The position numbers and the translations under genes are program-made. Below are positions 31,886 to 41,636 of a DNA stretch of 64,000 bases, piece by piece (within the stretch, counting starts at the first letter, position 1; every line of letters begins with the position of its first letter). Where the stretch lies: contig DYJC01000003.1 of the NCBI GenBank assembly GCA_020723305.1, forward strand, positions 186,584 to 250,583. Reading direction: 5' to 3'. Origin of the DNA: Desulfosudis oleivorans. Lineage in GTDB: Bacteria; Desulfobacterota; Desulfobacteria; Desulfobacterales; SURF-7. The notes under the pieces are model-generated. The model saw nothing but the letters and a program-made list of their open reading frames with translations. It was not told the DNA's origin and ran no database searches.

Positions 31886-32071
31886 GTGTTTTGTTGTACA
31901 TCATTGCAGTTTCGGAATAGTGGGAAGCCATGGAAAGAGCAGGAGATCTCCGATGCGGTTGGGCAATCCAATAAGAAACGGCTACTCATGGTTCATGGAT
32001 CATGCATGAATGATCTGCAATGGAAACAAAAAGGGCATGATCATGGCAGACCCATGGCCAACGATCTGGAA
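31886..32071 (+). pseudogene. N-terminal fragment of an alpha/beta-hydrolase (lipase-like)
   Basis: The frame carries LLMVHGSCMNDLQWKQKGHD then HGRPMANDLEF, matching the oxyanion-loop region 'VHGLCMNDLQW-GHDHGxxLA-DLG' of PGAP1/lipase-like hydrolases; the preceding 'SDAVGQSNKKR' also fits. The nucleophile elbow and the rest are gone: at 32069-32074 (GAATTC) the sequence switches to the opposite-strand BRO fragment. A broken gene. Confidence 0.55.
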
Positions 32072-32479
32072 TTCCTGCCCCATCATTCTTTGCTGTATCC
32101 ATTTTTCGCTTCGCCCATGCTGCTGCCAGTATTCACGGGCTCGGTCAAGGGAGCGGGCAGGGTCGCTCATATCCTGAAGGCGTTCATAGCCCACCTTGGC
32201 CAGCCATTGCTTTATAGGTTCCGCCTTGGGACTGGGGACTGATTGAATCAGCCGTAACAAGGTTTCCGGATCAGCCGCATCGGTCAGATATTGTTTCCCG
32301 TCAGCGGCTTCCATTTTCAGTCGGTGACAATTTGTCACCGACTCGCTGCCTTCCTTGTTTAGACGGTTTTTCAATACTTTCAAGTAGTTTCTTGCAGCCT
32401 GGTAGTCCGGCTGTTGAATCAGGACGGCTATGATGTCAACTACCGAGAAATACCATGTGTTGGTTTCTTGATTATAATG
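32072..32479 (-). pseudogene. Phage antirepressor / BRO-N family fragment
   Basis: Minus-strand frame with NQETNTWYFSVVDIIAVLIQ, YLKVLKNRLNKEGSE, LKMEAADGKQYLTDAADPET, LIQSVPSPKAEPIKQWLAKV and SEKWIQQRMMGQE. This is the BRO-N antirepressor domain plus the 'IQSIPSPKAE..WLA' segment common to prophage antirepressors. There is no ATG at the N-terminus; the frame is simply open to 32554. It is cut right after MMGQE, where intact proteins continue 'TRNKLTDYW'. So it is truncated at the 3' side and lacks a start: a prophage remnant. Confidence 0.65.
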
Positions 32480-32973: not shown

Positions 32974-34353
32974 ATGAGCGTAAATGATTCAATGAATCTA
33001 CTGACCCGAAAAAGAGTGAAATTGACCCGTTCTGTTTTGAAAGATTTTTATGAGAACGCGGCAAAAGGCAGTCTGTCTGCGCTTTCAAAACAGACGGGGT
33101 TGGCCTATGGCCTGTTATATAATATCGCGCATCGCCGGGTGAAATCCATATCCATAAGGGATTACAGGAAGATTTTTAACAAAGATCCAATCGTAAAGCT
33201 CCCGGATCGAAAAGACGGCGCTTATTTCCGGGACATGGTTCGTCTCTGGCTGTATTTGAATGTGGGTCAGAGCGAGAACATTCTGTATCAGGAGTTTTTT
33301 CAAGGGAAGAAAGCATTCAAAAAAACAGATTATCGGATTTTTACCGGTGAAATAGATACAATCGAATGCCGGCTTGAGGACCAAATGGAGCAAAAATTTC
33401 TGGGTCTGGGGATTGAACGGCCGGTCATTCAAAGCTGGATCCGGGAGTTCAATGCCCAAAACCGGGGAAAACGGATCCCGTACCGGGAATTGAAACCTGT
33501 TCTTGAATTCATTCAGGATAAGGTTGGTATCCATCCCACGCGATTGCTTAAACAGAGTGTCAAACGATATGAAACAGGAACCCTGCATACAGTATCCAGC
33601 CAGGTGTTTGAGGATGCCATGCAGGTGAAAAAAGAGATTGAGCAGTATCTGGATTCAAATCAGACTATCCATAAGGAAAAACTGCTGGATCGGATATATG
33701 GAAAACGGCCGGGTTTTATTCCATTTTATGAAATAGAAGAGAAGTTGGAATTTCTGAGAGAATATGGCGGACACTATCCGAAAAAATATCTGGGCCGTGG
33801 GATCGGGTATTATCGGAAAAAGAAAATCAAACATATCGCATCATGGCGGGGGATCAGAATTGACCAGGACTGCCGGGATATCATCCGGAAAAAACCGGAT
33901 CTCCGGCTTTCCTCTTTACCAAGAGTATTTCTGTATCAGGAGGTCGGCAAGCTGTTATCGGTCTTAAAAAAAATCTCCATTCAACAGATTTGTCATGATA
34001 ATAATGTTGAATTTGAGGCCGATATCTTACGCCAGGTAACTCTTGATCCGGGACAATATCCAAATCAGGAACAGGTGCTGGTCCGGTTTGATGAGGCTGC
34101 CCGATATCTGAAAATGAAACAGAAAGCATTTGATTATCTTGTCGCCAGTCACAGCAGTCTGTTTAAAAAGATTGCTGTGCGGAAAGAAAACGGCTGGTAT
34201 ATCCCGGACACAAGTCTTGAGATGCTTAAAAAAATTGCCGGGTTTTCATTGATAAAGGGAAAATACGATTTTCTGGCTTCCCGGAAAGATGAGTGTTATG
34301 CATCCTGTTATGGTTCAATGTCCAGGGCAATCGGATCTTCCCGTTCATTGTAA
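32974..34353 (+). CDS. Unrecognised 459-aa protein with HTH-like ends and an internal duplication
   Basis: I do not recognise the family. The N-terminal 65 residues are basic and look like a helix-turn-helix (LSALSKQTGLAYGLLYNIAH). A second HTH-like segment near 371-395 (RFDEAARYLKMKQKAFDYLV) resembles excisionase/MerR helices. Between them is a clear duplication: residues 166-209 (IPYRELKPVLEFIQDKVGIH...) and 247-290 (IPFYEIEEKLEFLREYGGHY...) share 'IP[YF]xE[LI]xxxLEF[IL]xx' and a later 'G-x-[HY]-P-[TK]-[RK]'. No signal peptide or membrane helix, so cytoplasmic; high Lys/Arg suggests nucleic-acid binding. It follows the 58-aa Cys-rich ORF; both may be driven by the promoter at 32635. Confidence 0.7.
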   Translation: MSVNDSMNLLTRKRVKLTRSVLKDFYENAAKGSLSALSKQTGLAYGLLYNIAHRRVKSISIRDYRKIFNKDPIVKLPDRKDGAYFRDMVRLWLYLNVGQSENILYQEFFQGKKAFKKTDYRIFTGEIDTIECRLEDQMEQKFLGLGIERPVIQSWIREFNAQNRGKRIPYRELKPVLEFIQDKVGIHPTRLLKQSVKRYETGTLHTVSSQVFEDAMQVKKEIEQYLDSNQTIHKEKLLDRIYGKRPGFIPFYEIEEKLEFLREYGGHYPKKYLGRGIGYYRKKKIKHIASWRGIRIDQDCRDIIRKKPDLRLSSLPRVFLYQEVGKLLSVLKKISIQQICHDNNVEFEADILRQVTLDPGQYPNQEQVLVRFDEAARYLKMKQKAFDYLVASHSSLFKKIAVRKENGWYIPDTSLEMLKKIAGFSLIKGKYDFLASRKDECYASCYGSMSRAIGSSRSL

Positions 34354-34433: not shown

Positions 34434-35462
34434 TTAATAGATTTTTAGATTCTTTTTCCCGCCGTAATACCGCATAAATTGAACACGGTCATATACTGCC
34501 GGGTCCGCACTTTTGGCCTGGCTCAGCTTGCCCTTGAAATCAGACAGGCTTTTGTACCCTCTGGCTGTCATCCAGTTTTCCAGACGCTCCAATAATTTCT
34601 CAAGGTGTTCCACTCCGTTTTTGTATAGACATGAAACAACCTGAACTGCATCTGCACCTGCAAGAATTTGTTTGATGACTGCTTCTCCATCATGAACACC
34701 GGTAGAGGCTGCAAGGTCACAACCGACTTTTTTCGCCATAATTGCTATCCATCGTAAAGAAATAGACAGATCAGATGGAGTACTTAAGATGTATGATGGG
34801 ATGATTTCTTGCTTATTAATATCAATGTCCGGGCTGAAAAAACGGTTAAAAAGCACCAGCCCATTAATACCGGTATTAGACAATTTCTGAATCATCAGCG
34901 CAAGATCTGTAAAATAATAACTAATTTTCAATGCAATGGGGATAGTGATATTTTTCCGGATATTATTGACGATCTGAAAATAAACGTTTTCTTTATCCTC
35001 CCGTGTTCGGCTGATATCCGTTGGCGGAAAAAACATGTTTAATTCAAGTGCATCCGCTCCGGCTTGTTCCAGGTTTCTGGCATATGGTATCCACTCAGCA
35101 GAGTCAAAATAGCAATTGATACTGGCTATCACAGGAATTGAAACTTTGCTTTTGCTGTCTTTGATAAGTGCAACGTATTTTTTCAGATTTTCTTCTCGAA
35201 TAACATAATCATAATATTCAATGGGATTCTTTCGCCCCTCATAATCAAAGTATTTATCATTATAATTTGATGTTTCGGTTTTTATAAAATCAGCATACTC
35301 AAGGGCGATCTCTTCTTCAAAGATGGATTTTAATACAACAGCACCCGCACCTTTTTTTTCGAGATCCTGTATTTTCTCGACCGAGTTCGTCAGCCCTGAA
35401 CTGCCAACGATAATTGGGTTTTTTAATGTAATTCCAAGATATTTTGTTGATAGATCCACCAT
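34434..35462 (-). CDS. Dihydroorotate-dehydrogenase-like FMN protein
   Basis: 342 residues. A DHOD-like TIM barrel: MVDLSTKYLGITLKNPIIVG, GAGAVVLKSIFEEE, 'GADALELNMFFPPTDISRTR', IPIALKISYYFTDLALMIQK and GINGLVLFNRFFSPDID. The family occurs beside true PyrD in several anaerobes and is not known to make pyrimidines; the catalytic Cys/Ser loop of PyrD is not obvious. GGGAG precedes the ATG. It follows the hemerythrin fragment by 15 bases on the same strand. The real substrate is unknown. Confidence 0.8.
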   Translation of the reverse strand: MVDLSTKYLGITLKNPIIVGSSGLTNSVEKIQDLEKKGAGAVVLKSIFEEEIALEYADFIKTETSNYNDKYFDYEGRKNPIEYYDYVIREENLKKYVALIKDSKSKVSIPVIASINCYFDSAEWIPYARNLEQAGADALELNMFFPPTDISRTREDKENVYFQIVNNIRKNITIPIALKISYYFTDLALMIQKLSNTGINGLVLFNRFFSPDIDINKQEIIPSYILSTPSDLSISLRWIAIMAKKVGCDLAASTGVHDGEAVIKQILAGADAVQVVSCLYKNGVEHLEKLLERLENWMTARGYKSLSDFKGKLSQAKSADPAVYDRVQFMRYYGGKKNLKIY

Positions 35463-35477
35463 ATTATTTCTCCCATA

Positions 35478-35645
35478 TTAAACATGATATTGTTCTTTCA
35501 GGTTGTGCATTAACCGGTGAAATGCTTCGTGCTTTCCAACCCCGATCCGCTCCTCCTCTATTTTTTCAAATCCTTCATAGAGTTCCTCATCTTTTTGACT
35601 TGAAAACCGCTGGTCACCCATTGGATAGAGGACATTATTTTTCAT
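35478..35645 (-). pseudogene. C-terminal fragment of a hemerythrin-domain protein
   Basis: 55 residues beginning MKNNVLYPMGDQRFSSQKDE then ELYEGFEKIEEERIGVGKHE, the last quarter of a hemerythrin HHE-type domain ('EENVLFPM-xD'). The preceding helices with the other iron ligands are absent, so it cannot bind a di-iron centre alone. Its ATG lies inside the last codons of the DUF6448 gene, whose end coincides with the break. A remnant, possibly still translated by coupling. Confidence 0.5.
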
Positions 35646-36270
35646 GTTTATGATGACCAGCTGCTGCGCCTTTTTGGGGGTGCGCTTCCTGATGATGCCC
35701 GCCGCCTTCGAGTTTGGCAGCATTATAAATCCCTTCCACATAATGTATAAAAATCACATAGGCTTCAATGAACTCACGACCCGCATCAATGCTTTTATCC
35801 GCATCCTTTTTCTTTTCCATGGCATGCTCAAACCGTTTTCGGATGCCGTCGGTGACTTCATTGGATATGTCTTTCACCAGTTCATCCACTGAGCCGGTTT
35901 CAAGGGATTTATCGGCATGGGTAATGGCAGGATCGACTTCTCCTGCGGGCTTAAGCCCTGTATACGGTTGCCCCTCCCCGGCCCGGTGGATTCGCACCAG
36001 AGTTTCAAGAAAATACATATCCGCCATTTCCTTGGCTTCAGGGCTCAATGCTCTTACGGACAGGGTTTTTTTAAACATGTCGCGGATTTGATTTTCATTT
36101 TCCTTTTTGACCCATTTCAGAACCGGAGTGATATCTTTGGTTTCAAGTGCCTTTTTTGCAGTGATCACTACCGGACCGTCCAATGTGTCGCAATGGGAAT
36201 AGGCCAAACCGGAAAAGAAAAGGAAACCTGCCAGGCAAAACGTCACAATGTAAAATAATTTTTTTTTCAT
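35635..36270 (-). CDS. DUF6448 secreted protein with His-rich tail
   Basis: 211 residues. Signal peptide MKKKLFYIVTFCLAGFLFFS, cleaved near 'AYS-H'. The mature N-terminus HCDTLDGPVVITAKKALETK is the family hallmark, followed by VLKWVKKENENQIRDMFKKT, YFLETLVRIHRAGEGQPYTG and a helical end with FIHYVEGIYNAAK. The last 23 residues are His/Gly rich and could bind metal; alternatively they mark where a deletion joined this gene to the hemerythrin remnant. AGAGGTG precedes the ATG. Function unknown. Confidence 0.75.
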   Translation of the reverse strand: MKKKLFYIVTFCLAGFLFFSGLAYSHCDTLDGPVVITAKKALETKDITPVLKWVKKENENQIRDMFKKTLSVRALSPEAKEMADMYFLETLVRIHRAGEGQPYTGLKPAGEVDPAITHADKSLETGSVDELVKDISNEVTDGIRKRFEHAMEKKKDADKSIDAGREFIEAYVIFIHYVEGIYNAAKLEGGGHHQEAHPQKGAAAGHHKHEK

Positions 36271-36671: not shown

Positions 36672-37688
36672 TCATGCGTTTTTAAGGGACGCAGTCTCGC
36701 CTTGGCAGGATGATCCGGAGCCGGCGACACATCCATAGCAATGGTTGTTGACGACGATTTCACGGTTCTTCAGCCGTTCCATATCAAAATTCATGATATT
36801 GTCCGGAGCGCTGTGATTGACTTTAAGTTTGAGCATCTGGTTGAAGTCACAATCGTAGAGAGATCCGTCCCATCCGACGGAAAGGGTCGTCCGGCACATG
36901 ACATGGGTAAGTGCGGCAGGGTTGAACGCATGGCAAAGCAGGTTGAAATAATCCTCGAAATTATCGGATTGAATCAGATACTCGAGGTAGCGTCCAACCG
37001 GGAGGTTGGTAATGCAAAAAAGATGGTTGAAATGGACGCCGTGTTCAGACAATAGTCGTTTGCGGTACTCATGTTCGAGCGACGCTTGGGAGCCCGGAAG
37101 ATAAGCACCCACGGGATTATGTACAATGTTGATGAATAAATTAGTCCCGCTCATGCCATACCCGCATGCATTGAGTTCCCGCATGACTTCGATTACTTTT
37201 CGAAACACGCCTGTTCCGCGCTGCCGGTCTGACCTGGCCTCCACGAAGTCCGGAAGCGATGTGACAATTTCAACATTTTGTTTTTTGAAAATATCAATAA
37301 AACGCCGGTACGGTTCATCCTGAAGGAGTGTCAGGTTGGAACGGACAATCATACGTTTTTTTAGAGGAGCTGCTTCATGAATGAACCACTCCAGATGAGG
37401 ATTCATTTCCGGCGAGCCGCCGGTAATGTCTATCGTGGAAATCGGGAAATTTTTGAGAATCTCCAGGCACTTTTCCAGAACCATCCTCGGCATGGTTTCA
37501 ATCCGCTTCGGGCCGGCATTGACGTGACAGTGACGGCAGGTCAGATTGCAGATGGTGCCGACGTTGATCTGTAATATTTCAATCCCGCCGGCCCGGAGTG
37601 GATACCAGTCAAGTTCTTGAATTTTTCTGGATAGAGAGGGAAAGCCGGAAAGACTTCCCAGGATGCGAAGCTGTTCGGCGGTGTCCAT
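36672..37688 (-). CDS. arsS: Arsenosugar biosynthesis radical SAM protein ArsS
   Basis: 338 residues. Radical SAM motif CNLTCRHCH near residues 48-56, then ETMPRMVLEKCLEIL, IDITGGSPEMNPHLEWFI, and a C-terminal DUF3641-type domain ending with the auxiliary cysteine cluster CYGCVAGSGSSCQG. This arrangement is specific to ArsS, proposed to attach the 5'-deoxyadenosyl group to arsenic in arsenosugar formation. It shares one base with the next gene upstream, its usual partner. No arsM is in the window, so methylation must be encoded elsewhere. Confidence 0.88.
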   Translation of the reverse strand: MDTAEQLRILGSLSGFPSLSRKIQELDWYPLRAGGIEILQINVGTICNLTCRHCHVNAGPKRIETMPRMVLEKCLEILKNFPISTIDITGGSPEMNPHLEWFIHEAAPLKKRMIVRSNLTLLQDEPYRRFIDIFKKQNVEIVTSLPDFVEARSDRQRGTGVFRKVIEVMRELNACGYGMSGTNLFINIVHNPVGAYLPGSQASLEHEYRKRLLSEHGVHFNHLFCITNLPVGRYLEYLIQSDNFEDYFNLLCHAFNPAALTHVMCRTTLSVGWDGSLYDCDFNQMLKLKVNHSAPDNIMNFDMERLKNREIVVNNHCYGCVAGSGSSCQGETASLKNA

Positions 37689-38017
37689 TACATCTCCTTC
37701 TTTTTGACGATTTTGCGCATTTGTGTGGTATGCGCCAGCGTTACACCGGCCATCATGGCAGCACCGACATGCGCGGCTTCCATCATCTCCTCATTGGAGA
37801 TTCCCAGGGATAGACATTTGATGGTGTAGGCGTCGATGCAGTACGGGCAGTTTTGCGTCATCGCGACTGTCAGGGCAATGAGTGATTTCTCCCGTTCGGT
37901 AAGTTTTCCGGCGTTTGTGGCAGCGCCATAATACTCAAAGAATTTATTGCCCTGATCGGTCGCCCATTCGGCAATATTCGGAAAATCAGCAAGGTCCTTT
38001 GGTTCGTAGTAATTCAT
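37688..38017 (-). CDS. AhpD-like protein associated with arsenosugar biosynthesis
   Basis: 109 residues of the carboxymuconolactone decarboxylase/AhpD fold: LTEREKSLIALTVAMTQNCP then YCIDAYTIKCLSLGISNEEM, with the redox-active CxxC of AhpD (CPYC), and a following HVGAAMMAGVTLAH helix. It resembles the arsenosugar-biosynthesis-associated peroxidase-like family. It precedes and overlaps arsS, which supports the call. Its role may be redox protection or an arsenic-transfer step; this is not established. Confidence 0.85.
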   Translation of the reverse strand: MNYYEPKDLADFPNIAEWATDQGNKFFEYYGAATNAGKLTEREKSLIALTVAMTQNCPYCIDAYTIKCLSLGISNEEMMEAAHVGAAMMAGVTLAHTTQMRKIVKKKEM

Positions 38018-38396: not shown

Positions 38397-39617
38397 ATGA
38401 AAGCAGCGGTCGGAAAAGAATTGAAAACCTCGGGAGTTAAGGTGCTTATCCACCAAAAATTGAAGAGCGTTTCTGAAAATTGTAATGAATGCGGCCTTTG
38501 CGTGCAAGAGTGCGCTTTTCTCCAAAGATATGGAATCCCTAAGAAGATTGCAGACGCCTATGATCCCATGAACAGGCATCATCAGACAATGTCGTTTGAA
38601 TGCAGCCTCTGTCAGTTATGCGTTGCAGTTTGTCCTCAAGGGATAAACCCATGTGAAATGTTCATGGAGATGCGGAGAGAGGCTGTTTCAAGAGGCAGCG
38701 GCCATTATCCGGAGCATGCCCCCATTCTCGGATATGAGCGCCGGGGGCACTCCAGGTGTTTTTCCTATTATACGCTTCCTTTTGGTTGTGATACGATATT
38801 TTTTCCCGGATGCACCCTTTGCGGAACGAGGCCGGATAAGGTAAGGAAGCTTTACGAATACTTGAAGACAAGCATCCCGAAAATCGGTATTGTGCTGGAT
38901 TGCTGCATCAAGCCATCTCATGACCTGGGCCGCACAGAACATTTCAACGCTGTGTTCAATGAGATGAGGGATTATCTCCTGCATCACGGTGTTAAAAAAA
39001 TTCTTGTGGCATGCCCCAACTGCCTGAAGATGTTCAAGAGATATGGAGAAGGTTTTTCAGTCAAGACAGTTTATGAAGTGCTTGATGAAATCGGGTTGCC
39101 GGATACGCCGCTTTTGAAGGGATCGGTAACCGTTCATGATCCGTGTCCGTTACGGTTTGAAGGGGCGGTTCATAACGCAATAAGAGGGCTTATTGAAAAA
39201 AAAGGTCTGTGCGTGGAAGAGATGGAGCACAGTAAAACAAAATCCTTGTGCTGCGGTGAAGGCGGAATGGTGGGGTTTGTCTCTCCTGAGCTTTCCAAGG
39301 AATGGGCTGCTCTGAGGGGCCGGGAGGCCGGTGGAAGGAAAATAATCACCTATTGCGCAGGCTGCGCTGATTTACTGAATCAGGTTGCTGCAACGAATCA
39401 TATTCTCGACCTGGTGTTTGAGCCTCACGCCACCATGAAAGGAAAGGTGAAGGTTTCAAAAACGCCGGTAACCTACTGGAACCGGATCAGATTGAAACGC
39501 AGCCTTAAAAATATGGCAGGTACCGGGATTACAAGGGAGAGGACGTTACCATCCGTAACTGGGCAGAAAAAAAGCAGAATGATAAAGTTTATCTTTTCTC
39601 TGTTTTTCAACCCCTAA
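38397..39617 (+). CDS. HdrD/GlpC-like (Fe-S) oxidoreductase
   Basis: 406 residues from the ATG at 38397; the frame opens at TTG 38331 but that extension looks non-native. N-terminal dicluster ferredoxin domain: CNECGLCVQECAF and CSLCQLCVAVCPQG. Then two CCG-type segments: VLDCCIKPSHDLG with CPNCLKMF, and SLCCGEGGMVG with YCAGCADLLNQ. This is the soluble HdrCB/GlpC architecture. It may take electrons from or give them to a ferredoxin or quinone pool. It is 20 bases upstream of the AlkB gene, so a role in supplying its electrons is possible but unproven; AlkB normally uses rubredoxin. Confidence 0.8.
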   Translation: MKAAVGKELKTSGVKVLIHQKLKSVSENCNECGLCVQECAFLQRYGIPKKIADAYDPMNRHHQTMSFECSLCQLCVAVCPQGINPCEMFMEMRREAVSRGSGHYPEHAPILGYERRGHSRCFSYYTLPFGCDTIFFPGCTLCGTRPDKVRKLYEYLKTSIPKIGIVLDCCIKPSHDLGRTEHFNAVFNEMRDYLLHHGVKKILVACPNCLKMFKRYGEGFSVKTVYEVLDEIGLPDTPLLKGSVTVHDPCPLRFEGAVHNAIRGLIEKKGLCVEEMEHSKTKSLCCGEGGMVGFVSPELSKEWAALRGREAGGRKIITYCAGCADLLNQVAATNHILDLVFEPHATMKGKVKVSKTPVTYWNRIRLKRSLKNMAGTGITRERTLPSVTGQKKSRMIKFIFSLFFNP

Positions 39618-39637
39618 ATCAACGATAAGGAGCTGCT

Positions 39638-40681
39638 ATGGATATTTTATCATTCTATCTGGTATTCCTGGTTCCGTTCAGTGTTGTTGCAGGGTATATC
39701 ATGGGGGGTGCGTATACCTTTTTAACACCGGTGTTTGTTTTCCTCATTGTTCCGATTCTGGACATGGTGATCGGGGAAAACACCCGGAACTTTCCGGAAG
39801 AGCAGGCCGGGGATATCGAAAAGATTTTCGGATACCGGCTTGCAACCTGGCTTTGCGCACCCATTCAGATCGGCCTGGTATTCTGGGGTGCCGGTATCAT
39901 CACCCATGAAAAGCTTACTTTAATCGAGTACGCCGGGTTTGCTTTCTCCATGGGTACTTCTTCCGGGGTTCTGGGGATCAATGTAGCTCATGAACTGGCC
40001 CATCGCGTGAATACAAAACTGGAACCGGCCTTTTCCCGGATCATGCTATGGAGCGTGCTGTATATGCATTGGGGATTGGAGCATGTGGTAGGTCATCATC
40101 GCATGGTTGCCACTCCTGAAGATCCGGCCACTGCCAGATACGGGGAATCATTTTACCGTTTTCTGCCAAGGACGGTTCTGGGCGGACTCAACAGCGCCTG
40201 GGCATTTGAGGTCGACCGGCTGAACAGGGAGGGAAAGCCGGCCTGGAGCTCCGGCAACCGGGTTGTTATCGCTCTTCTTGCGCAGATATCTCTGCTGATC
40301 ATGATCGCACTTGTCTTTGGCGGGCATGCGTTGATCTACTGGATTGCACAGGCGTCGATTGCCATTACCCTTTTGGAGATTGTCAATTATATTGAGCATT
40401 ATGGTCTTGCACGGAAAAAAATTTCGGACAGCCGGTATGAACCGGTAAAGCCATGGCATTCCTGGAACTCAAGCAACTGGCTGACCAACCGGTTTCTGTT
40501 CAATCTTCAGCGGCATTCGGATCATCATTACAAACCCGGGCGACGGTATCAGATTCTGAGGCATCATGATGAAAGCCCGCAACTGCCGACCGGTTATGCA
40601 GGAATGATTCTGCTGGCTGCGATTCCTCCTCTGTGGCGATTCATCATGGATCCGAAGGTGGATGCCATAAACAGGAGATGA
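39638..40681 (+). CDS. alkB: AlkB-type alkane 1-monooxygenase (membrane di-iron)
   Basis: 347 residues (typical AlkB about 400). All four hallmark histidine motifs are present: NVAHELAHR, GLEHVVGHHRMV, NYIEHYGL, and LQRHSDHHYKPG. Several hydrophobic helices surround them (SFYLVFLVPFSVVAGYIMGG at the N-terminus). The EHxxGHH, NYxEHYGL and LQRHSDHH combination separates AlkB from ordinary fatty-acid desaturases. It hydroxylates terminal alkyl carbons using O2 and needs reduced rubredoxin. It follows the Hdr-like Fe-S gene by 20 bases with AAGGAGC before the ATG. No rubredoxin gene is adjacent. Finding an O2-dependent enzyme in a presumed anaerobe is unusual. Confidence 0.88.
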   Translation: MDILSFYLVFLVPFSVVAGYIMGGAYTFLTPVFVFLIVPILDMVIGENTRNFPEEQAGDIEKIFGYRLATWLCAPIQIGLVFWGAGIITHEKLTLIEYAGFAFSMGTSSGVLGINVAHELAHRVNTKLEPAFSRIMLWSVLYMHWGLEHVVGHHRMVATPEDPATARYGESFYRFLPRTVLGGLNSAWAFEVDRLNREGKPAWSSGNRVVIALLAQISLLIMIALVFGGHALIYWIAQASIAITLLEIVNYIEHYGLARKKISDSRYEPVKPWHSWNSSNWLTNRFLFNLQRHSDHHYKPGRRYQILRHHDESPQLPTGYAGMILLAAIPPLWRFIMDPKVDAINRR

Positions 40682-40711: not shown

Positions 40712-41437
40712 TCAATGGGTTTTGCCATTTTCCCGTATCATGGGAACAAAGAGGACAGGGATCACCTCTTTTTCACGGATGACTCCGTTCTCTTTTACCA
40801 GCAGCACCAGTTTTTGGTCATGGGCCTCTCCTACCGGAATGATCATCTTACCCCCTTCTGCCAACTGCTCCTTCAGGGGTTCAGGGATATGGGAAGGGGC
40901 ACAGGTTACAATGATCGCATCAAAAGGACTGTGTTCCTTCCATCCCTGATATCCGTCTCCGATCTTCACCTGAATATTTTTATATCCCAATTCTGATAAC
41001 AGTTTTTTAGACCGCTTGCCCAGGATATCGATGATTTCGATGGTATACACTTCTTTATACAGTTCCGCCAGAACAGCTGCCTGATATCCGGAGCCGGTCC
41101 CGATTTCAAGAACGGTTTTTCCCGGATTCGGGTTCAGGATTTCCGTCATGAGTGCTACAATATAAGGCTGGGAAATGGTCTGGCCTTCTCCTATGGGAAG
41201 AGGATAATCATTATATGCCTGGGAGCGGTGCTTTTTTGGAACAAATAAATGGCGATGGACCTTTTCCATCGCATCCAATACGCGCTGATCGGTTACACCT
41301 CTTTTCCGGATCTGATACTCAACCATTACACTGCGGAGCAGGGTGTATTCTTTTTCTTCCAGTTCGGATGCGACACAATGGACAGTTAAAAAAGAATAAA
41401 TGCAAAGACAGCAGATAATGTGGAATCGTTTTGTCAT
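40712..41437 (-). CDS. pcm: Protein-L-isoaspartate O-methyltransferase with signal peptide
   Basis: 241 residues from the ATG at 41437, chosen for AGGAG upstream; the frame opens at 41539. A SAM-dependent methyltransferase that repairs isoaspartyl residues: GQTISQPYIVALMTEILNPN, VLEIGTGSGYQAAVLAEL (SAM site), IIVTCAPSHIPEPLKEQLAE. The 35-residue extension before YTLLRSVMVEYQIRKRG is a signal peptide (MTKRFHIICCLCIYSFLTVH), so this copy is likely exported to the periplasm; most Pcm proteins are cytoplasmic. Confidence 0.88.
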   Translation of the reverse strand: MTKRFHIICCLCIYSFLTVHCVASELEEKEYTLLRSVMVEYQIRKRGVTDQRVLDAMEKVHRHLFVPKKHRSQAYNDYPLPIGEGQTISQPYIVALMTEILNPNPGKTVLEIGTGSGYQAAVLAELYKEVYTIEIIDILGKRSKKLLSELGYKNIQVKIGDGYQGWKEHSPFDAIIVTCAPSHIPEPLKEQLAEGGKMIIPVGEAHDQKLVLLVKENGVIREKEVIPVLFVPMIRENGKTH

Positions 41438-41636
41438 TGGATCACTCCTTTTTCTGTCACATTGTTTGTAAAGATTCATTGATGACCGGCGAATATAAAG
41501 ATGAATCCGGCCATCCGGAAGCCATCTTGTCGAGTTCAAATCGGGAATGAGGAAAGTATAGGAGGATCCGGCTGATTTTTCAAGTTATTTAAATATGGGT
41601 GACGATGACCTAATTTTATGGTAACTATTAAAAATA

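Follow-up and report, generated by a model that had tools for sequence, protein, structure and literature searches.

What is an AlkB-type alkane monooxygenase, an enzyme that should need O2, doing in a sulfate reducer, and what supplies its electrons? The question is raised by a stretch of 64,000 nucleotides from Desulfosudis oleivorans (GenBank assembly GCA_020723305.1, contig DYJC01000003.1, positions 186,584 to 250,583 of the forward strand; hereafter the window), in which an alkB gene at 39638-40681 follows a gene for an Hdr/GlpC-like iron-sulfur (Fe-S) protein at 38397-39617 on the same strand, after a gap of exactly 20 bases that holds an AAGGAG motif. An earlier, sequence-only reading of this DNA had placed both genes correctly, gap included, and had proposed that they form a coupled module, with the Fe-S protein serving AlkB instead of rubredoxin. 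We put the probability at about 0.62 that the window encodes a functional AlkB membrane di-iron hydroxylase with a micro-oxic role in an alkane-living sulfate reducer, that its electron donor is encoded elsewhere, and that the neighbouring Fe-S protein is no dedicated donor.

The gene encodes a true AlkB with intact iron-binding residues. A phmmer search against PDB sequences matched its product to the two Fontimonas AlkB structures, 8f6t (E=3.8e-85) and 8sbb (E=7.6e-73), to which it is 44% and 43% identical, as against 31% to a Polaromonas fusion protein and 27% to XylM. The iron ligands of Fontimonas AlkB, as given in excerpts of Chai et al. 2023 (PMC10113152), are nine histidines and one glutamate; at the ligand sites of 8f6t the window protein reads HHHHHEHHHH, all ten residues being present, which upholds the earlier claim that the histidine motifs are intact and that the enzyme should need O2. 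An AlphaFold2 model built from a 14-row alignment (pLDDT 84.1) predicts the AlkB fold, with membrane helices and a cytosolic catalytic cap, and in a Foldseek search its only matches at E<=0.001 were 8f6t (TMq 0.90) and 8sbb (0.88). The leucines of the FtAlkB substrate vestibule were taken from excerpts of Guo et al. 2023 (PMC10110569) and mapped by the offset of ten that the glutamate numbering in the excerpted parts of both papers implies (PMC10113152, PMC10110569): the window AlkB retains L264, L305 and L308 (8f6t numbering) and has valine at the chain-length site I54. Its predicted activity is terminal alkane hydroxylation with O2.

Selection on the gene was gauged by the ratio of non-synonymous to synonymous substitution rates (dN/dS), which in pairwise comparisons was about 0.12-0.14 (0.144 and 0.132 for the window against its two AlkB-bearing genus mates); a ratio of about 0.13 indicates that AlkB is under purifying selection. 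A pseudogene is ruled out by the open frame together with this ratio, and contamination or misassembly by the presence of AlkB, with shared synteny, in three of the four genomes of the genus.

The host genome (5.40 Mb in 47 contigs, by computed estimates 97.87% complete with 3.65% contamination) has a dsrA over the profile cut-off, in line with the earlier remark that it otherwise looks anaerobic; that description is incomplete, since the genome also encodes a cytochrome bd oxidase and, immediately after one of its rubredoxin genes, a flavodiiron-type protein (ODP and flavodoxin domains), so that the cell has the means to deal with some O2. The genome encodes seven PFL-like glycyl radical enzymes. 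An NCBIfam scan of six of them named none as alkylsuccinate synthase; two were compared with PDB sequences, and one (G000:C31:10934-13441; L190/L191) scored 1276 bits against 9o8u, the 1-methyl alkyl succinate synthase MasD, compared with 481 bits against benzylsuccinate synthase. This likeness identifies it as the alpha subunit of a MasD/AssA-type alkylsuccinate synthase, which makes anaerobic alkane degradation a probable lifestyle of the cell. Micro-oxic hydrocarbon activation, one of the roles that the sequence-only reading had offered, is accordingly kept here as the best reading, but without the Fe-S protein as coupled donor.

That reading had staked the coupling on conservation of the gene pair in relatives, and we found the intact pair conserved in none. 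The surroundings of AlkB could be read in 32 distinct loci, drawn from 28 of the 31 AlkB-bearing genomes of the order, three further members of the phylum and one SAR324 genome (L077 duplicates L005, and neighbour counts exclude G018 and G092, whose homologues are distant). Beside AlkB the Fe-S gene is intact in 1/32, the window itself, and a remnant in 1/32, the genus mate G307; within the genus each gene also occurs alone, and the proposed coupling is accordingly not supported. The genus is represented by four genomes: that of the window, G305, G306 and G307. In G307, AlkB (93% identical) is preceded by an Fe-S gene reduced to its final 82 codons (residues 325-406); the Fer4 part is gone, an ABC-transporter block lies where the rest would be, the only other trace is an 18-residue match, and no other copy was found at E<=1e-20 in this 85% complete genome. 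The contig of G306 carries, in order, ArsS, an AhpD-like gene, YdjY, the Fe-S gene (91%), a protein-L-isoaspartate O-methyltransferase (PCMT) gene and NodT; nothing lies between the Fe-S and PCMT genes where AlkB stands in the window, a whole-genome search of this 89% complete genome found no AlkB, and the Fe-S gene has a dN/dS of 0.25. As for G305, its AlkB (80%) has a gene of 459 amino acids 110 bp upstream and PCMT as a neighbour; the locus lacks the Fe-S gene, of which a different contig carries a homologue (48-50%).

The order of genes in the window is the 459-amino-acid gene, a dihydroorotate-dehydrogenase-like gene, a DUF6448 gene, ArsS, the AhpD-like gene, the Fe-S gene, AlkB, PCMT and NodT. 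The AlkB-PCMT adjacency is common to the window and G305 and missing in G307; each of the four genomes has the 459-amino-acid gene on the contig that carries AlkB or the Fe-S gene, and its place just upstream of AlkB in G305 makes it the probable older neighbour of AlkB within this genus. These arrangements are most simply explained if the AlkB-PCMT neighbourhood is long-standing in the genus and the Fe-S gene sits in a block that varies; each of the two genes, AlkB and the Fe-S gene, then remains intact in the absence of the other. Nor is the 20-base gap remarkable, as short gaps between same-strand neighbours are common: by a crude open-reading-frame caller, 19/52 such pairs in the window (frames of at least 100 amino acids) and 124/526 in the other loci (at least 150 amino acids) are 30 bp or less apart, overlaps included. 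Besides the window's, 19 genomes have both AlkB and the Fe-S family (E<=1e-50), and in all of them the two are on different contigs. The Fe-S gene is thus probably a chance neighbour of AlkB, not a partner.

What the Fe-S protein does instead is suggested by its family. It has Fer4_17, Fer4_8 and CCG domains over the Pfam cut-offs, the Fer4 dicluster plus CCG make-up of HdrD/GlpC-like CCG proteins, and its scores to the equivalog models listed were all far below the cut-offs. NCBIfam NF045663, a dicluster protein found near Sec genes, was matched at 233 bits (cut-off 530) over profile positions 310-664 of 759; the window protein shares its Fer4-CCG part but lacks its N-terminal pyridine-nucleotide oxidoreductase part, and is not a member. 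The family occurs in 85/389 genomes of the order (E<=1e-50, a threshold that leaves out the G307 remnant). Of four relatives scanned with Pfam, three have a VTT domain; open frames in many others reach at least 600 amino acids, and genes for rhodanese, TusA/DsrE, SelD or YdjY stand near the family in some of the 15 loci read; this context points to sulfur, selenium or arsenic handling. In the window an ArsS-AhpD set (36672-38017) is divergent from the Fe-S gene, and ArsS, AhpD and the Fe-S gene are kept together in G306.

If the Fe-S protein is set aside, the most economical guess is that a general rubredoxin of the cell reduces AlkB. The genome search for rubredoxin that the sequence-only reading had called for returned two genes, neither at the AlkB locus, so that its phrase 'instead of rubredoxin' holds for the neighbourhood and not for the genome; rubredoxin was present in 30/30 genomes searched, namely 29 with AlkB plus G306. 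The rubredoxin motif was not found in the window or in 32 branch loci (31 distinct; 415 kb scanned), with a pattern that recovered 4/5 rubredoxin-linked loci and 29/31 loci around known rubredoxins. A flavoprotein is the other candidate: a Pyr_redox_2 protein is encoded just upstream of AlkB in L084 (20 bp), L082 (61 bp) and L029 (66 bp), with a VTT domain in the first two.

The residues at the rubredoxin-docking site were compared with those of rubredoxin-linked AlkBs. Six arginines of 8f6t AlkB (143, 148, 169, 215, 284 and 287) face acidic residues of AlkG in the excerpted description of that structure (PMC10113152). The window AlkB has N, P, V, R, R and P at these sites, four of the six arginines being replaced (a pairwise alignment gives V, not N, at 143). 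At least five basic residues were found in 0/32 AlkBs of the window's branch, compared with 7/7 rubredoxin-linked controls and 1/11 from Bacteroidota; the seven controls are five AlkBs annotated beside or near a rubredoxin, the fusion 8f6t, and 8sbb, whose AlkB was assayed with AlkG according to excerpts of its report (PMC10110569). This count hints at another donor, but the net charge of the four interface segments that contain the six sites shows no difference, at 3 to 8 for the rubredoxin-linked AlkBs and -3 to 9 for the branch.

The branch itself was defined by phylogeny. AlkB occurs in 31/389 genomes of the order and in 8/297 of the phylum, two of the eight being distant homologues; partial pieces (G517, G614, G627) are counted among the 31 and were excluded, like the broken copy L016, from trees or neighbourhoods. 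In a tree without six long or odd rows, 31 sequences from the phylum and one from SAR324 fall on one side (support 99/94), the seven rubredoxin-linked AlkBs lie apart (100/99), and ten Bacteroidota AlkBs also lie apart, not as one group; all 55 rows give nearly the same split (89/87), with one long-branched desaturase row on the wrong side. The window AlkB is therefore in a branch from its own order and phylum, separate from rubredoxin-linked AlkBs, in trees whose sampling, made by similarity to the window sequence, itself tends to produce a grouping of this kind. Placement among non-AlkB hydroxylases, which would have undone the sequence-only reading, was not seen, in agreement with the identity of 44% to 8f6t against 27% to XylM; this check is limited by XylM and the Polaromonas fusion, whose long branches are not firmly placed in the 55-row tree. 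Our searches of open-access full text found no description of the branch.

Across the 32 branch rows, vestibule site 264 is valine in 6 and site 308 isoleucine in 8. In eight related AlkBs of the same 32 (L078-L082, L084, L085 and L094), valine replaces the Fe2-binding ligand glutamate of 8f6t, while all nine histidines are kept. One genome, G297, has a broken second copy (L016:6883-8713) and an intact copy (L048:5765-8676) that both follow similar Y1-type transposase genes, that at L048 checked by Pfam, hinting that AlkB is mobile.

Among the closest known systems is AlkB-AlkG-AlkT (Fontimonas 8f6t/8sbb; L096, L098, L099, L101 and L103, AlkBs with a rubredoxin annotated nearby), with whose AlkB the window protein has much in common: with it it shares fold, iron ligands and vestibule leucines and from which it differs in its separate branch, its docking sites, the lack of any linked rubredoxin in our scan and its sulfate-reducing host. 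The AlkB fused to ferredoxin and ferredoxin reductase (Polaromonas, L102) and XylM (pWW0, L100) belong to the same superfamily and likewise depart at the docking arginines, with 1 and 3 basic residues of six; the window AlkB, unlike the Polaromonas protein, has no fused domains, and it is flanked by the Fer4/CCG protein and PCMT, whereas xylM is followed by a 2Fe-2S reductase. Bacteroidota proteins named 'alkane 1-monooxygenase' (L008-L015, L017, L097, L104) have intact ligands, as in the window, and 2 to 5 basic docking residues, and the scan of their 11 loci gave no rubredoxin motif; they are 35-44% identical to the window AlkB and separate from it in the tree.

Taken together, these features suggest how the cell might use the enzyme. 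Under strictly anoxic conditions it would activate alkanes through alkylsuccinate synthase; when traces of O2 arrive, AlkB would hydroxylate the terminal carbon of an alkane in the membrane with O2 and two electrons, consuming some of the incoming O2, and the resulting alcohol would enter beta-oxidation. AlkB would draw its electrons from a carrier whose gene lies elsewhere, in the simplest case either of the two rubredoxins, itself reduced by an NAD(P)H flavoprotein, and the Fe-S protein would belong, with ArsS and AhpD, to the variable block between AlkB and its older neighbour. We infer the substrate, the donor, the micro-oxic role and growth on alkanes.

Gene co-occurrence across the 389 genomes of the order, with counts not corrected for kinship, bears on this proposal. 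AssA was counted at an identity of at least 60% to the alkylsuccinate synthase query, which drops four genomes at 43-45% (G338, G350, G426, G449) and takes the total from 31 to 27. So counted, it is present in 12/31 genomes with AlkB compared with 15/358 without (p=5.6e-8; by genus, 10/17 vs 9/133). The Fe-S family is present in 20/31 genomes with AlkB and 65/358 without (p about 1e-7; by genus, 13/17 vs 23/133), and AssA in 16/85 genomes with the Fe-S family and 11/304 without; the AlkB and Fe-S families favour the same lineages. As a control, the family of the 459-amino-acid protein was set against AssA in the same way and gave no association (3/25 vs 24/364).

Several of these results weigh against the reading that we prefer. 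AlkB is associated with the Fe-S family about as strongly as with AssA, and the AlkB-AssA link is strong within genomes that have the Fe-S family (11/20 vs 5/65) and is not significant within those that do not (1/11 vs 10/293, p=0.34). Within the genus, G306 has AssA without AlkB, and G305 and G307 have AlkB without AssA (G307 at its 85% completeness). Both rubredoxins of the window genome have the motif CPVCG and four AlkB-linked rubredoxins have CPDCG, a difference by which the cell's two rubredoxins may not serve AlkB; the best-scoring rubredoxin, read in 29 of the 30 genomes, has CPVCG, CPICG, CPLCG or CPTCG. In L005 a distant Fer4/CCG protein (24.6% identity) is encoded 237 bp upstream of AlkB and downstream of an NrfD gene, and another Fer4 protein family lies 0.6 to 4.1 kb from AlkB, within the 6.5 kb considered, in L005, L074 and L085.

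Could the Hdr-like Fe-S protein nonetheless be the dedicated donor, passing electrons from a low-potential pool to the di-iron centre in rubredoxin's place? Its spacing from AlkB on one strand, the co-occurrence of the two families, the lack of a linked rubredoxin in our scan, the replaced docking arginines and the Fer4/CCG protein of L005 would all fit; the single intact pair among 32 loci, the open and conserved AlkB of G307 beside a remnant without the Fer4 part, the selected Fe-S gene of G306 without AlkB, the separate contigs in 19 other genomes, and a family that elsewhere is often VTT-fused and in several loci stands with sulfur- or selenium-handling genes make this very improbable. We judge it slightly less remote, and still quite unlikely, that the whole branch receives its electrons from an FAD/pyridine-nucleotide oxidoreductase, linked or not and in many cases VTT-fused, acting directly or through an anaerobe-type rubredoxin: the Pyr_redox_2 genes close upstream of AlkB, two of them VTT-fused, argue for it, but they occur in only 3/32 loci, two from one genus, and none is next to AlkB in the window.

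A different kind of alternative leaves the donor aside and holds that AlkB is chiefly an O2 scavenger or a modifier of endogenous lipids or hydrocarbons, with growth on alkanes incidental. The O2-handling genes of the sulfate-reducing host are compatible with it, as are the 19/31 AlkB-bearing genomes without alkylsuccinate synthase at the 60% threshold and the varied neighbours of AlkB, mostly with no recognisable alkane-pathway genes among them; the kept vestibule leucines 264, 305 and 308 and the co-occurrence with alkylsuccinate synthase speak against it, and AlkB is not known to serve for substrate-free O2 removal. We regard it as unlikely, and return to the micro-oxic alkane hydroxylase as the reading that best accommodates the locus.

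The features of the locus are collected below.

Features of the window around alkB, with the evidence for each assignment
Feature	Position	Strand	Evidence
459-amino-acid protein, no Pfam match	32974..34353	+	Pfam scan; homologue in G305 likewise without Pfam family
Dihydroorotate-dehydrogenase-like protein, in variable block between 459-amino-acid gene and AlkB	34434..35462	-	NF005741 over cut-off
DUF6448 protein, in variable block between 459-amino-acid gene and AlkB	35635..36270	-	PF20046
ArsS, arsenosugar-biosynthesis radical SAM protein	36672..37688	-	TIGR04167 over cut-off
AhpD-like protein, arsenosugar-biosynthesis-associated, divergent from Fe-S gene	37688..38017	-	TIGR04169 over cut-off
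4Fe-4S dicluster/CCG (Hdr/GlpC-like) protein, 406 amino acids, upstream of AlkB	38397..39617	+	Pfam
AAGGAG, ribosome-binding-site-like, precedes AlkB ATG	39627..39632	+	Alignments; also before AlkB in G307 and G305
AlkB-type alkane 1-monooxygenase, 347 amino acids, ten iron-ligand residues present	39638..40681	+	phmmer to PDB, ligand residues, fold, dN/dS
Protein-L-isoaspartate O-methyltransferase (PCMT), convergent with AlkB	40712..41539	-	Pfam PF01135, synteny

The nearest named relatives are metagenome-assembled genomes (MAGs) labelled Desulfocicer vacuolatum (L003, 93%) and Desulfobacteraceae (L004, 80%). Upstream of the tabulated genes, 31886-32383 resembles, by eye, what is left of a gene for a PGAP1-like lipase/esterase, of which G305 has the full-length form (L004:1105-2304); a Pfam scan of 31886-32242 gave no match.

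Genes within 6.5 kb of AlkB, clustered over 33 loci (32 distinct), did not yield a conserved neighbour that would name a partner, no family being present in more than five loci. Those that recur are a sensor kinase/response regulator family (five loci), AMP-binding ligases of acyl-CoA-ligase type (4/32), Pyr_redox_2 proteins (three), PF10118 predicted metal-dependent hydrolases (three) and the Fer4 protein (three), with the 459-amino-acid protein in three loci within or near the genus and PCMT in three (one in SAR324); further recurrent groups are ABC-type ATPases and a cluster in which GGDEF proteins fall together with others. The PF10118 genes lie directly downstream of AlkB, in loci of a single family (L084:6025-6990, L085:8098-8955, L094:6139-6990). 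At L093:5420-9582 AlkB stands between a RACo-type corrinoid activator and pterin-/B12-binding proteins, all on one strand. The 459-amino-acid protein, weighed as a candidate partner, is found in 25/389 genomes and had no phage match; AlkB is present in 7/25 genomes with it compared with 24/364 without (p=0.002), an association that counted by genus is 3/13 vs 14/137 (p=0.17).

The AlkB is well founded and its host unusual; the branch, its hosts and the donor question are of moderate interest. The locus poses a question that experiments could answer: how does an AlkB receive electrons when no rubredoxin is linked to it and its docking site is altered? One doubtful but broader answer is that AlkG-type rubredoxin does not serve the separate AlkB branch of sulfate-reducing alkane degraders, whose docking site would have been rewired for another low-potential donor (candidates are a VTT-flavoprotein, a rubredoxin of the anaerobe type or a Fer4-CCG protein encoded elsewhere); anaerobes that use AssA would then have a second route into alkanes, dependent on O2, at oxic-anoxic boundaries. 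AlkB serves as a marker of aerobic alkane degradation. Since a branch of it occurs in an order of sulfate reducers, partly in genomes that have alkylsuccinate synthase as well, reads of alkB from anoxic sediments need not mean aerobes or sampling artefacts, and one cell may hold both an O2-using and an O2-free entry into alkanes.

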